From a virus, in the IMG/VR virus record IMGVR_UViG_3300042691_044533, positions 1-21,987 of that record: a stretch of DNA of 21,987 bases. One strand, 5' to 3'. Positions 5,731 to 11,081 of the stretch are shown here, one piece after another. Below the pieces are notes generated by a model. The model did no database searches, was not told where the DNA came from, and saw nothing but the letters and a program-made list of their open reading frames with translations. The translations under genes were made by a program, and so were the position numbers. Every line of letters starts with the position of its first letter. Positions within the stretch are counted from its first letter, which is position 1.

Positions 5731-8369
5731 CGCAGAAGCAATACGCTGTTAAACCAGGGGAAATTCGACTGGATCTCCTCCCTATTGATTGGCCCTTTAC
5801 TCCGCTCGGTGCACAGAAAGATCCTTATGTACTTGGTTGGCAAAAGCGGCCTTTCAGCGCTGATGAAATTGAAAAAGAACTTCTGTCAGGTAAGTGCAAA
5901 GCGGTTGGTCTCCATGGGGGTCCTGTCTTTAATCATCCCTACGGTTTGGTTTGGGTTGATGTGGATGGAGCAAGCATCTACAAGCTTGTGGAAGAAATCT
6001 CCGGTCTTCCGTTCAACGATGCACTTCCTCCAACGCTCACCATTCTGAGCGGTAAGCCTGGACGCGAACGCAAGCTATACCGCGTAGAAAAAAGAAAGCA
6101 CGACTCTTTTCTCCGTAATAAGTACGTCTGGCACAGCAAAGAAGTAGCCGACGAAAAACTTGAGATTCTTTGGACCCGGCACCAAGGGGTGTTAATGGGC
6201 TTGCATCCAGAGACCGATGGTTACTTCACCGCAGAAGAGCAGGGTTTTGAATGGATTGATCGTTTGCCGGAAATGCCGGCCTGGTTACTGCACGGTATCG
6301 TTAATAAAAACGTACAGCAGGGTAAACCTCCGCAGGAAATTACGCGGCGAGTAACAGCTGGCAGTGTTGTTCAATCAACAATTGGACAAGAACGGGAAAT
6401 TCAAAACGCAAAGGAAGCGGCTTGGGCATTACCTCCTGAAGTTGCAGACGACTACGATCTCTGGATCATTGTTGGTCAGACGCTTCATTCCGTTGATGAA
6501 TCCTTGCTAGACGAATGGGATGCCTGGTCTAGGCAATCGGAGAAGTATCAAGAAGGCGAATGCCATAGACGCTGGCTCTCCTTCACAAAGGGTGGTGGCC
6601 GCACGGCTGGGACTCTTTTCCACATGGCAAAGGAGAATGGTTGGTCTCCTTCTCAGGACTATCGTGCGTTTGGTGTTGATGATGAGACACTGGAGCATGT
6701 TTCACAACTGGTTGAACAAATTGACGAGGATTTAAAACAAATGGCATCTGTTCCAGCGGTGGTTGAGAAAGATAAAGCTGAGGCTTGGAGTAATACGCAC
6801 CAAATGCTGGCGCAGAAAACAAGCAAGAAAAAAGAAGAGAAGGAAGATAAGCGGCTTTCATCGGATGTCATTGCGGATCGTGTGTTCGACATGTATACAG
6901 GCAATCTCCGGTACAGTCAACCTCATGGTCAGTTCTTCTTATATGACCAGCGGAAGGGATTATGGGAACCTTTAACCAAGGTTGAGATGCTCGGGAGCTT
7001 GCGCGAAAAGCTCAAAACCCTTGTCACCGTAGAAAACGAAAAGTTCAAAGGGTTCAGCACGAACCTTATGAATGACATCTATTCGCAACTGCAATCGATT
7101 ATTCCTTTTGATGAATGGTACGACGGCTCCAGGTATCTGCTATTCACTAATGGAGTCTTGGATGTTGAGACTAAAGATCTGATGGAGTTCCAGCGGGATC
7201 TTTACCTCACGCAGCAGATGCCCTACGACTACGATCCTGCCGCCACATGTGAAGAAATTATTAAATGGCTGAAGCATACGCAGCATGACAGCTACCAGCG
7301 GGCACAAGTTCTGCGTGCCTGGCTCAGGGCAACACTGCTGGGGCGCCATGAAATTCAGAAGTTTGTTGAAATCGTGGGACCTGGTAAGTCCGGTAAGTCC
7401 ACCTACGCAAACCTTGCTGTTGCATTGGTTGGTAAGCAAAACACCTACTCAACAGACTTTGAAAACCTGGAGAAGAACCGGTTTGAGGCCGCAAGTTACA
7501 TGGGTAAAAAGCTGTTGCTGTTCCAGGATGTTGATCGATGGGGTGGTTCTGTCTCCAAGCTAAAAGCAATCACGGGTGGTGACTGGATTCGCTCGGAACG
7601 TAAGTATCAAACGGAAAGTCAAGATCCATTCCAGTACCACGGGATGGTCATGATTACAGCTAACGAAGCCATTCAATCCACTGATTACACATCTGGTCTT
7701 GCTCGTCGCCGCTTGACCATTCCTTTCGACCGTCCGTTTGCCGGTGGCCAAGCAGAACAAAAAGAACTAATCAAATTTGACAACAAAGGTAATCCGCAAG
7801 GTGTTTTTGCTCCGCTCCTCGCTGGTCTTGTCAACTGGTTGCTGGATATGACAGAGGAGGACATGCGTTCCTATCTCATGGAAACTGGTAAGAATGTCTC
7901 GTTCTTCCAGCGGTATGAGAAGACGCAAAGCCTGCGCTCTAATCCGCTACTGGACTGGATGGACCATAAGGTCGTCTTTGATCCAAACGTTAGTTCTCCT
8001 GTTGGGTTCTGCAAAGTGCAGCCTGGTGGTAGCTCCGGTTACTACGACAACTGGGACAAATGGCTCTATGCAAGCTATGCAGAATTCTGCCGTAGCTGCA
8101 ACGTTGGCATCATGTCGCGTGGTCGTTTTGAGCCCTTGTTCCTAGACATCTGCCGTCACCAGTTGAAGATCAATGTCTACGGCGTCAAGAACAGCAAAGG
8201 ACTACGCATCGTAAATGCTGTTGTCCGCGATTCAAATAAAACGCAGTACGAAAGCTATCCTTCCATTGTTGAGGTTGCGGCTAACCCCGAAAAGTACAGC
8301 GAATTCTATGGGGCCTCCTTATCAACAACTACCGATGAGATAATGGATGAAAATGCAATAGACATGTGA
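5727..8369 (+). CDS. Bifunctional Prim-Pol primase / SF3 helicase, 880 aa
   Basis: Replication enzyme with three parts. Residues about 15-190 are an archaeo-eukaryotic primase (Prim-Pol) domain: VWVDVDG with the metal-binding DVD (78-80), and SGKPGRERKLYRV (108-120). About 225-300 is a PriCT-2-like linker (WALPPEVADDYDLWIIVGQT). About 375-690 is a D5/VirE-type SF3 helicase: Walker A GPGKSGKST (551-559), Walker B LLLFQDVD (596-603), motif C VMITANE (641-647), and an arginine-finger region GLARRRLTIPF (657-667). A C-terminal domain follows. It should unwind DNA and make primers at the fork. The length is usual for phage and plasmid fusions of this kind. Coupled to its neighbours at both ends by 4-bp overlaps. 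Confidence 0.92.
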   Translation: MTQKQYAVKPGEIRLDLLPIDWPFTPLGAQKDPYVLGWQKRPFSADEIEKELLSGKCKAVGLHGGPVFNHPYGLVWVDVDGASIYKLVEEISGLPFNDALPPTLTILSGKPGRERKLYRVEKRKHDSFLRNKYVWHSKEVADEKLEILWTRHQGVLMGLHPETDGYFTAEEQGFEWIDRLPEMPAWLLHGIVNKNVQQGKPPQEITRRVTAGSVVQSTIGQEREIQNAKEAAWALPPEVADDYDLWIIVGQTLHSVDESLLDEWDAWSRQSEKYQEGECHRRWLSFTKGGGRTAGTLFHMAKENGWSPSQDYRAFGVDDETLEHVSQLVEQIDEDLKQMASVPAVVEKDKAEAWSNTHQMLAQKTSKKKEEKEDKRLSSDVIADRVFDMYTGNLRYSQPHGQFFLYDQRKGLWEPLTKVEMLGSLREKLKTLVTVENEKFKGFSTNLMNDIYSQLQSIIPFDEWYDGSRYLLFTNGVLDVETKDLMEFQRDLYLTQQMPYDYDPAATCEEIIKWLKHTQHDSYQRAQVLRAWLRATLLGRHEIQKFVEIVGPGKSGKSTYANLAVALVGKQNTYSTDFENLEKNRFEAASYMGKKLLLFQDVDRWGGSVSKLKAITGGDWIRSERKYQTESQDPFQYHGMVMITANEAIQSTDYTSGLARRRLTIPFDRPFAGGQAEQKELIKFDNKGNPQGVFAPLLAGLVNWLLDMTEEDMRSYLMETGKNVSFFQRYEKTQSLRSNPLLDWMDHKVVFDPNVSSPVGFCKVQPGGSSGYYDNWDKWLYASYAEFCRSCNVGIMSRGRFEPLFLDICRHQLKINVYGVKNSKGLRIVNAVVRDSNKTQYESYPSIVEVAANPEKYSEFYGASLSTTTDEIMDENAIDM

Positions 8370-8750: not shown

Positions 8751-10043
8751 ATGAGTAAAAAGACAAAGATTTTGTGGTGTGGTGACATTGTCGCCATGAC
8801 TGGCTTCGCACGCGTCACTGAAAACGTCATCTATCGCCTGAAGGATGATTTTGAGATTGTTGTCCTCGGCCACAACTGGTGGGGTGATCCGTGCGATCAA
8901 CAGAAAGATTTCAAGATGTATCCGTCGTCCAACCGGTTCCAGACGGCGCCTTTTGGTGAGCAGCGCATTCGAGAGATCGTAGAGAAAGAAGAGCCGGATA
9001 TCGTTTTCTCAATTAACGATATGTGGATTATTAATGAGCAATACCGGCAAATTGAAGACCTGCACAAAGCAGGTAAGTTCAAGTTCGTTGGTTATGCGCC
9101 AATGGATTCGTATGGGTGGATTGGTTGCCTAGCCGATACCGCCAACAATTGGGACTCCATCATTTCCTATACGGAATTTGGTGCACGCGAATTTGTGAAA
9201 GGTGGCATCAATAAGCCGATTGCCGTCATCCCCCACGGTGTTACACCTGGTCAGTTCTATCCCAAGGACAAAGCGGAATGTCGTCGCAAGCTGGGTCTTG
9301 ATGAAGACCTTTTCATCGTGTTCAACGGAAACAGGAATCAGTTCCGTAAACGGATTGACATCACCATCAAGGCATTTGCTGAGTTTGCTATCGGACGCCC
9401 TGATACCCGCCTGTACCTCCACATGGGCATGAAGGACCAGGGCTGGGATGTGATGAGCCTCTTCGGTAGGGAAATGTCAAGAGTGGGCCTGGATCCCAAC
9501 GGGCGCATCATCATGACGGCACAGACGGAAGGGCCACCAAACGTATCTGTGGACATGCTCAACACCATCTATAACGCCTGTGATGTGGGCATCAATACCT
9601 GCAAAGGTGAGGGCTGGGGTCTTGTCAACTTTGAACACGCTGCATGTGGTGTGCCCCAGGTGGTGCCTGACCATACATCATGTAAGGAGATCTTCGAGGG
9701 CTATGGGGAGCTGATCCGTTACGACCACGTTGATGTGGATACCAATTACGGACGTGAGATGCCTTGCCCCTCCTCCGAACACCTGGTAGAGATCCTAGAC
9801 CAACTGTACGAGGTTCCTGAGATCTGCGACGAGATTGGTGAGAAGTGCTACCAGCGGGCTACTGATCCTCAATTCTCATGGGATACAGTTGCGTCTCAGT
9901 TTGGTGGCATCTTTGAGGATGTGATGAACCAGGTGGATCACTCAGTCCAACCTGAGATCAATGTTGGGATTGGCGAGAAACCAAAAGCACGTAAGAAGAA
10001 AGGTAAACCGATGCGTCGTGAGCTGGCAAGTGCCGTAAAGTAA
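8751..10043 (+). CDS. GT-B family 4 glycosyltransferase, 430 aa
   Basis: Transfers a sugar from a nucleotide-sugar donor to an unknown acceptor. The N-terminal Rossmann half starts KILWCGDIVAMTGFARV (residues 6-22). The C-terminal half holds NGNRNQFRKRID (192-203), typical of the donor phosphate-binding strand, and GEGWGLVNFEHAACGVP (286-302) with the E-x7-E motif Glu287/Glu295 of GT4 enzymes. The last 20 residues are Lys/Arg-rich. It could modify phage DNA, virion or host surface; nothing here decides. GGAAGG lies 14 bases before the ATG and a candidate promoter lies at 8711-8729. The gene ends at a strong terminator. Confidence 0.88.
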   Translation: MSKKTKILWCGDIVAMTGFARVTENVIYRLKDDFEIVVLGHNWWGDPCDQQKDFKMYPSSNRFQTAPFGEQRIREIVEKEEPDIVFSINDMWIINEQYRQIEDLHKAGKFKFVGYAPMDSYGWIGCLADTANNWDSIISYTEFGAREFVKGGINKPIAVIPHGVTPGQFYPKDKAECRRKLGLDEDLFIVFNGNRNQFRKRIDITIKAFAEFAIGRPDTRLYLHMGMKDQGWDVMSLFGREMSRVGLDPNGRIIMTAQTEGPPNVSVDMLNTIYNACDVGINTCKGEGWGLVNFEHAACGVPQVVPDHTSCKEIFEGYGELIRYDHVDVDTNYGREMPCPSSEHLVEILDQLYEVPEICDEIGEKCYQRATDPQFSWDTVASQFGGIFEDVMNQVDHSVQPEINVGIGEKPKARKKKGKPMRRELASAVK

Positions 10044-10066
10044 GCGGGCGACAAATGGGTGACCGG

Positions 10067-10094
10067 GCCTCTGCTGAAAAGCAGGGGCTTTTTT
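10067..10094 (+). terminator. Intrinsic terminator
   Basis: GCCTCTGCT (10067-10075) pairs along all nine positions (one G-T wobble) with AGCAGGGGC (10080-10088), closing a GAAA tetraloop, and six T residues follow (10089-10094). This is a textbook Rho-independent terminator, 23 bp after the glycosyltransferase stop. It ends the plus-strand replication/metabolism block. Confidence 0.92.
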
Positions 10095-10186
10095 GTTGCG
10101 TACTGATACAGAACTAGGGGGCAACGGTCGGACTTTGGGCGGACTTTCCGACTTTGGGGGTATTTCTATCTTTAATCACACGAGAG

Positions 10187-10218
10187 CCCATACACTTTGG
10201 GGGGTTAAAGTGTATGGG
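10187..10218. repeat. Palindromic unit 1 (12-bp stem, G6TT loop)
   Basis: CCCATACACTTT (10187-10198) pairs perfectly with AAAGTGTATGGG (10207-10218) around the loop GGGGGGTT (10199-10206). There is no T tract after it, so it is not a standard terminator. It is near-identical to the reverse complement of unit 2 at 10259-10290. Confidence 0.85.
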
Positions 10219-10258
10219 TAGTAGGATCACGTTCTCAGCTTGGTCTCACGGTAAGAAA

Positions 10259-10290
10259 CCCTTACACTTTGACCCCCCGAAATGTAAGGG
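10259..10290. repeat. Palindromic unit 2 (8+3-bp stem, C6 loop)
   Basis: CCCTTACA (10259-10266) pairs with TGTAAGGG (10283-10290). After an unpaired C, TTT (10268-10270) pairs with AAA (10280-10282), leaving the loop GACCCCCCG (10271-10279). The six C residues are complementary to the six G residues in the loop of unit 1, and neighbouring bases extend the match to eight (one wobble). Confidence 0.82.
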
Positions 10291-10364
10291 AAGTTTTTAG
10301 AATAAAGGTGAAACCGGGGGTAAAGTCGGAAAGTCCACCCATCCACTCCAGCTCATTTCAATTC

Positions 10365-11081
10365 ATGGCAAACATCCCCAAAAAGATCGCCTCCCTGGTA
10401 AAGGAGCACGACTCTTTCCGCTACGTACCAAATGCCGAGCGGCTTAGTACTGATGAACTAACGGCAAACGGGCTTTACAAGGGCTATCCCTGCCCCCATG
10501 GACACGACATTCGCCTGCTTGACAATCACTCCTGTTATCTGTGCGCCGGCAAAATTCGTGACAACATCTGTGGTTTTGACTTGAACTACATGCAGGAGGA
10601 GTACAAACGCAAGTACGCGGATCTGTGGAGCCAGATTGCCGTTGGTGATCCCAGTGAGTGCTGGGAGGCGCCGGGGTTGACGCAAAAACGCATCTGCCTA
10701 CCCTCCTACCGGTCGCTGTACGCCAGGGACAAGTCGACCAACGTCACCGCCCACAAGGCGATCTACCAATGCGCTTGGGGGGATGTGGGTGCGTTGTTCG
10801 TGACGAGAGTATGTGGGAACAAAACGTGTCTCAACCCTCTCCACCTTGTCTCAAACTGGAACCGCTTATTTCCTCCCAGTGTGATCAGCCCTTTTGATTA
10901 TGCTTTCCAACCCGAGAAGTTGATGCAGTATCAACAAGTACAAGATGCAAACCAGCTCAAAGTATTACGCGAGCGTTATTACAAGTGCACCATCCAGAAC
11001 CCTTTAGTTAACCAAAACAACTCCGATTATGATAGTGAATATATACAGTATTACCAATCCGAATGGCAAGAAACCAGTTGA
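10365..11081 (+). CDS. HNH-like zinc-finger protein with substituted catalytic His, 238 aa
   Basis: The N-terminal finger is CPHGH (43-47) paired with Cys57 and Cys60 (SCYLC), likely one zinc site. The C-terminal region matches HNH_3-like endonucleases: CW at 99-100, AHKAIY (129-134), then CGNKTCLNPLHLV (150-162) with Cys150/Cys155 and the N-P-x-H end of the HNH motif. The position where the family has its first catalytic His (V-x-H-x-C) is Arg148 here, so nuclease activity may be lost or altered. ATG 10365 is chosen; the open frame further up runs into the palindromic element. It may be a homing-type or packaging-associated nuclease, or a DNA-binding protein derived from one. Confidence 0.7.
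   Translation: MANIPKKIASLVKEHDSFRYVPNAERLSTDELTANGLYKGYPCPHGHDIRLLDNHSCYLCAGKIRDNICGFDLNYMQEEYKRKYADLWSQIAVGDPSECWEAPGLTQKRICLPSYRSLYARDKSTNVTAHKAIYQCAWGDVGALFVTRVCGNKTCLNPLHLVSNWNRLFPPSVISPFDYAFQPEKLMQYQQVQDANQLKVLRERYYKCTIQNPLVNQNNSDYDSEYIQYYQSEWQETS

Follow-up and report, generated by a model that had tools for sequence, protein, structure and literature searches.

The window, by which we mean the whole stretch of 21,987 bp that makes up virus record IMGVR_UViG_3300042691_044533, contains a large inverted duplication, a cis-acting DNA site which S-EIV1-like phages carry in one copy and inherit vertically. The two halves of this dyad change together between lineages. We consider it fairly secure that the element is a site on which proteins assemble on DNA; a replication origin is the leading candidate for its function, still unproven and proposed here with caution.

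The record comes from an S-EIV1-like Synechococcus phage and covers part of its genome. Its primase-helicase, which carries PriCT_2, D5_N and Prim-Pol domains, shares 56% identity over 98% with the homologue in Synechococcus phage S-EIV1, a cultured phage with a circular genome of 79,178 bp (KJ410740). The S-EIV1-like phages correspond to the genus-level group G238; a marine survey put the share of this group in the cyanophage content at 3.3% (PMC5332604). Window and S-EIV1 share the order exonuclease, primase-helicase, speD, glycosyltransferase, element, HNH-like gene and next gene, with the primase-helicase gene two or three genes upstream of the element. The original prediction had described an unusual symmetric element of a cyanophage between a terminator and an HNH-like gene, and all parts of this setting were confirmed (Table 1). 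A terminator is found at the equivalent position in most relatives whose loci were inspected. Two relatives, L106 and L147, have the order speD, element, HNH gene, glycosyltransferase, with the glycosyltransferase gene downstream and the element still beside the HNH gene; what moved is the glycosyltransferase gene or, alternatively, the cassette of element and HNH gene.

Table 1. Features of the dyad element and its borders in the window.
Feature	Position	Strand	Remarks
Intrinsic terminator of glycosyltransferase gene	10065..10096	+	11-pair stem and T-run; upstream boundary of the element
Left outer arm	10126..10155		iteron-like copies CGGACTTT (10129), CGGACTTT (10140), CCGACTTT (10148)
Left spacer	10156..10186		GGGGG tract, then TATTTCTATCTTTAATCACACGAGAG; pairs partially with right spacer
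Inner palindromic unit 1	10187..10218		CCCATACACTTT..AAAGTGTATGGG
Centre	10219..10258		GTCTCA box at 10243
Inner palindromic unit 2	10259..10290		CCCTTACACTTT..AAATGTAAGGG
Right AT-rich spacer	10291..10321		TTTTTAGAATAAAGGTGAAAC, then GGGGG; -10-like TAGAAT inside
Right outer arm	10322..10341		AAAGTCGGAAAGTCCACCCA
HNH-like gene HNH2	10365..11081	+	238 aa; I-PpoI-type zinc-binding loop, Arg148 at the catalytic-His position

The inverted duplication predicted at 10137-10340 is real, its coordinates were right and the claim was even understated. Its inverted-repeat score of 74.7 was reached by none of 60 shuffles of the gap (maximum 32.7), and the dyad ranks first among the inverted repeats of the window (75 versus 45 for the runner-up). 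Moreover, the folding of the 216-nt stretch lies far from that of dinucleotide shuffles (z -7.2 as DNA and -8.6 as RNA), none of 200 being as good; sliding-window folding with 200-nt windows was uninformative, with GC-rich coding regions dominating the result. Since an additional copy of the arm motif CGGACTTT lies at 10129, outside the left arm, we put the start of the element at about 10126, and it is better bounded at about 10126-10341. The repeat search returned outer arms of 20 nt (10136-10155 and 10322-10341) with 95% complementarity; both window arms are flanked by GGGGG in identical orientation, and these tracts are unpaired. The two 32-nt units are indeed inverted copies of each other, and arms, spacers and units share one symmetric register. 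The local hairpin of unit 1 (10187-10198/10207-10218) is perfect, and that of unit 2 carries a C-A mismatch. By eye, the AT-richness of the right spacer is conserved, its clade-wide form being roughly TATATAAAGATAAAA.

An exact scan for the arm motif recovered both arms in six contigs and one arm in others; further loci were collected via the HNH-like gene and a second arm variant. A pattern scan with GCAGACTTTGGGGG gave mostly unrelated contigs, and hits were retained only if a second, matching arm was present. Among the 121 HNH-gene loci, 97 scored above 45, a value that no other site in the scanned genomes exceeded, and 115 scored above 33; the other six are mostly truncated contigs, plus L072, in which a short dyad is visible by eye and was missed by the automatic search. 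When 30 lineage representatives and the window were each compared with 60 shuffles of their own gap, the dyad beat all shuffles in 29 of the 31 and failed to do so in L040 and L071. It is the top inverted repeat in the window and in all seven long relatives (S-EIV1 and G001-G006), where it scores 60-80 and the next repeat at most 45. Every record searched holds one copy of the element, at a single syntenic locus. The original prediction had set beforehand that an absent or unstructured element in close relatives would speak against it; we found a homologous dyad at the equivalent place in S-EIV1 and in almost all other relatives whose sequence covers the locus. The element measures 120-300 bp, and a single inner hairpin occurs in L106, L109, L126 and L134, the first two of which are short forms.

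The sequence of the arms varies by lineage and is matched in both arms of a genome. The window group has CGGACTTTCCGACTTT, four lineages (L048, L077, L091, L106) have GCAGACTTT, two (L062, L094) have CCGACTATACC or CCGATTATACG, two (L037, L055) have AAAACTAAGAATGA and one (L067) has GGAAAACAGGGAATA; CCGAYTATAC is another variant that replaces the window-type arm motif in other lineages. Left halves matched their own right halves with a mean score of 69, compared with 25 for the right halves of other lineages and 19 for shuffled halves, and the own right half ranked as the best partner in 27 of 30 lineages. Within the close group, nine pairs of the long-range structure are changed on both sides, a number reached in 7 of 500 shuffles, whereas the two local hairpins have only two such pairs, which 188 of 500 shuffles matched; the conserved property is therefore the long dyad. 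The predicted two-state symmetry, in which the halves fold alone or together, thus holds clade-wide for the long-range dyad and fails as regards two local hairpins as a conserved property. It is limited to the window group and some others; in L004 and L077, for instance, a single long dyad occurs and the two local palindromic units are lacking. Arms which are lineage-specific yet matched within each genome provide a natural experiment in co-evolving DNA sites.

A further short sequence is concentrated at the locus. The 30 elements contain 35 copies of GTCTCA/TGAGAC, compared with 3.1 in shuffles. Expectations from the rest of the record are exceeded about tenfold within 400 bp of the dyad (27 boxes versus 2.6), the numbers within 1 kb being 45 versus 5.8, and TGAGAC is the most enriched of 180 permuted hexamers of the same letters; these counts come from ten genome records, several of them incomplete, and the records are related, so that P values are inflated. 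The window boxes are at 9893, 10243, 10828 and 10848. Boxes are also seen within the coding sequence of neighbouring genes. Clustered short repeats, a criterion for iteron-type origins, are present as TGAGAC boxes and as arm boxes (10129/10140/10148 and 10322-10341); a general count of 8-mer iterons gave mostly a modest excess.

We propose that phage or host proteins would bind the arm boxes, the inner palindromes and the TGAGAC boxes and thereby build a symmetric nucleoprotein complex. Its likeliest use may be the start of phage DNA replication, at an iteron-type origin with inverted iteron sets, a reading to which the AT-rich flank and the nearby primase-helicase gene would fit. The HNH-like protein, a probable non-cutting DNA binder, might bind the element and control its own promoter. 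The interpretation which we tentatively prefer is an assembly site that serves as a replication origin and may or may not double as operator of the HNH operon. In plasmids, initiator genes adjoin their iterons and are repressed from them, and iteron plasmids thus combine origin and operator. Symmetric viral origins such as oriL and oriS of herpesviruses combine a large palindrome, initiator boxes and an AT-rich part. Our element would resemble them in all three, its boxes being candidate initiator sites, although the viruses are unrelated and its AT-rich part is not at the centre. It also resembles iteron-type origins of phages, satellites and plasmids such as that of PLE, which are likewise non-coding and have short direct and inverted boxes near replication genes; the iteron of the PLE origin, which works with RepA, contains inverted sub-repeats of 13 bp (PMC7145576). 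In contrast to these, the present element is one large dyad, its initiator is only putative and strand asymmetry does not mark it.

In the window, G001 and G003, cumulative GC skew peaks locally at the element. As proof of an origin, this signal was rejected because a fit corrected for gene orientation puts the switch elsewhere. With the element as origin, third-codon-position strand asymmetry was fitted with an R2 of 0.10 in G004 (best 0.44) and 0.38 in G002 (best 0.45), and for S-EIV1 none of the fits had the right sign. The best switch in these three genomes lies 10-27 kb upstream of the dyad. The places concerned, at ~34.5 kb in S-EIV1 KJ410740, ~76.5 kb in G002 and ~63 kb in G004, possibly represent another origin. 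This asymmetry genuinely speaks against the simplest reading, that of a bidirectional origin, and because the switch does not lie at the element we hold the origin assignment no more firmly than stated above. A strand-composition switch is typical of bidirectional replication and not strictly required of an origin, and phage replication can leave no such signature.

The candidate binding protein is the product of HNH2. It matches a PHROGs endonuclease family (2e-11), stayed below the cut-off of Pfam PF05551 in all sequences tested and, as a profile against PDB sequences, found I-PpoI alone (E 0.7). Its AlphaFold model (pLDDT 73.7) has I-PpoI chains as the first four PDB fold matches (E 0.2-0.3), followed by Smad MH1 domains. 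Sequence and model evidence thus agree in pointing, weakly, to a relationship with I-PpoI. The zinc loop C-x4-C-x-N-P-L-H-L of I-PpoI and other His-Me finger proteins recurs in HNH2; the likeness is weak outside this core, and the catalytic His is replaced by Arg or Lys. In the alignment, Arg148 stands opposite a position occupied by His in 1evw and by Gln in 2o6m, the PDB entry titled 'H98Q mutant'; at this position, His98 of I-PpoI, 40 of 41 representatives have Arg or Lys, and L004 alone has His. C150, C155 and H160 of the zinc loop are invariant in 36 aligned sequences, as is a second Cys/His set (C43, H45, H47, C57, C60). The kept zinc ligands and the replaced catalytic His suggest that HNH2 binds DNA and that its nuclease activity is absent or altered. 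The gene belongs to the core of the lineage and is not a scattered homing gene; we found no HNH-like gene of this kind in plasmids and only two MAG contigs with it in genomes. Most relatives have a small HNH_3-type gene, HNH1, first downstream of the element and then HNH2, with HNH1 lying between element and HNH2 in, for example, L024, L027, L030, L062, L067 and L094. In the window lineage HNH1 is absent and HNH2 directly follows the element.

A purely regulatory site, an operator or promoter whose palindromes are bound by the HNH-like proteins or another regulator and which has no role in replication, is unlikely on balance and yet the most serious of the alternatives. The element always lies just upstream of HNH-like genes and stays with them when the gene order changes, and HNH2 looks catalytically dead yet zinc-binding, with Smad MH1 next after I-PpoI among its fold matches. 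As judged by eye, L106, L109 and L147 have a unit-like palindrome across TAGAAT/TACAAT directly ahead of the HNH gene, and a TATAAT at this place in S-EIV1 has a copy of the inner unit beside it; a palindrome over or beside such -10-like hexamers is as expected for self-regulation. A precedent is I-TevI of phage T4, which represses itself through an operator at its own promoter (PMC2988022). Here, too, a gene of an endonuclease family has a candidate binding site at its own promoter, but the I-TevI operator is a single site of about 20 bp and the protein is a GIY-YIG enzyme and active. A symmetric array of 120-300 bp with three kinds of boxes, and with clusters that reach to 1 kb and into coding sequence, exceeds what an operator would require. 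Support for promoters is also weak: matches after the element are mildly above shuffles overall, and the window has none there.

That the HNH proteins instead cut or nick the element, as a DNA-processing site for packaging start, nicking or fork stalling, is very unlikely. HNH genes do adjoin it, and in many relatives HNH1 often keeps an H..DN..DNR motif. Against this, HNH2 lacks the catalytic His in all but one of its representatives, HNH1 is missing from the window lineage, and in L072, L096 and L097 HNH1 is degenerate and has lost H..DN. The original suggestion of a cos- or packaging-like site fails on the S-EIV1 map, where the terminase at 54-57 kb is 33 kb away from the element at 7.9 kb; the element is, furthermore, internal in contigs with matching ends (G002, G004).

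A structured RNA, either a 5' leader or an antisense RNA forming one long hairpin or two, is less probable still. The predicted fold is very stable, and the nine pairs altered on both sides in the close group would also be expected of an RNA. However, the terminator separates the element from the upstream gene, and Rfam gave no gathering-level match, only weak ones at E>1. In an RNA helix under selection, imperfect positions are expected to be G-U more often than A-C. We therefore counted isolated imperfect pairs on the gene strand of 30 elements with an aligner that scores G-U and A-C alike, and found 52 G-U versus 67 A-C, whereas control hairpins before T-runs in the same genomes had 36 versus 17 (Fisher p 0.005 against the elements). 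Beside the arms, the orientation of the G/C tract varies with the lineage, and in the window group the tract is unpaired, which also argues against RNA pairing there. As the excess of G-U seen in the terminators of the same phages is lacking, selection seems to act on DNA symmetry and not on an RNA helix, an argument that is statistical and not direct; the RNA switch considered originally is thus not supported. A mobile MITE-like element, which the terminal inverted repeats and the size of about 200 bp in the window had suggested, is practically ruled out by one copy per genome at the same syntenic locus across the clade and by arms that diverge with the lineage. We saw no evidence for the recombination site that had also been proposed, with no recombinase recognised at the locus, where some genes remain unnamed.

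As far as our literature search went, the replication start of the S-EIV1-like lineage has not been described. The search returned no link between S-EIV1 and an inverted repeat; the original S-EIV1 genome paper was outside its scope, and a prior mention is possible. The sole text found to name S-EIV1 together with an origin of replication concerns Nostoc phages. A conserved, sequence-defined site beside a candidate binding protein would provide a direct handle on the start of replication in a cultured phage. It is conceivable, though doubtful at present, that the element represents a new class of phage site for replication initiation, in which a large inverted iteron dyad is bound by a nuclease-dead I-PpoI-like protein of the adjacent gene; if true, a widespread cyanophage lineage would have turned a homing-endonuclease fold into a regulator that binds its origin. 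Smad MH1 is regarded as a degraded homing endonuclease (Grishin 2001, cited in PMC4999995), and HNH2 may be a further fold of this type turned DNA-binding regulator.

Two observations concern annotation. In S-EIV1 (L198, KJ410740), the HNH-like gene is shortened to 7027-7467, while its frame is open to an ATG at 7704, and two small opposite-strand CDS are annotated over the 5' part of the gene (locus 7027-7704). The protein encoded at 944-1612 of the window matches PHROG 3704, labelled 'ferredoxin' (1e-96), whereas its S-EIV1 homologue (86% identical) sits in a gene annotated PurM, so that the names conflict.
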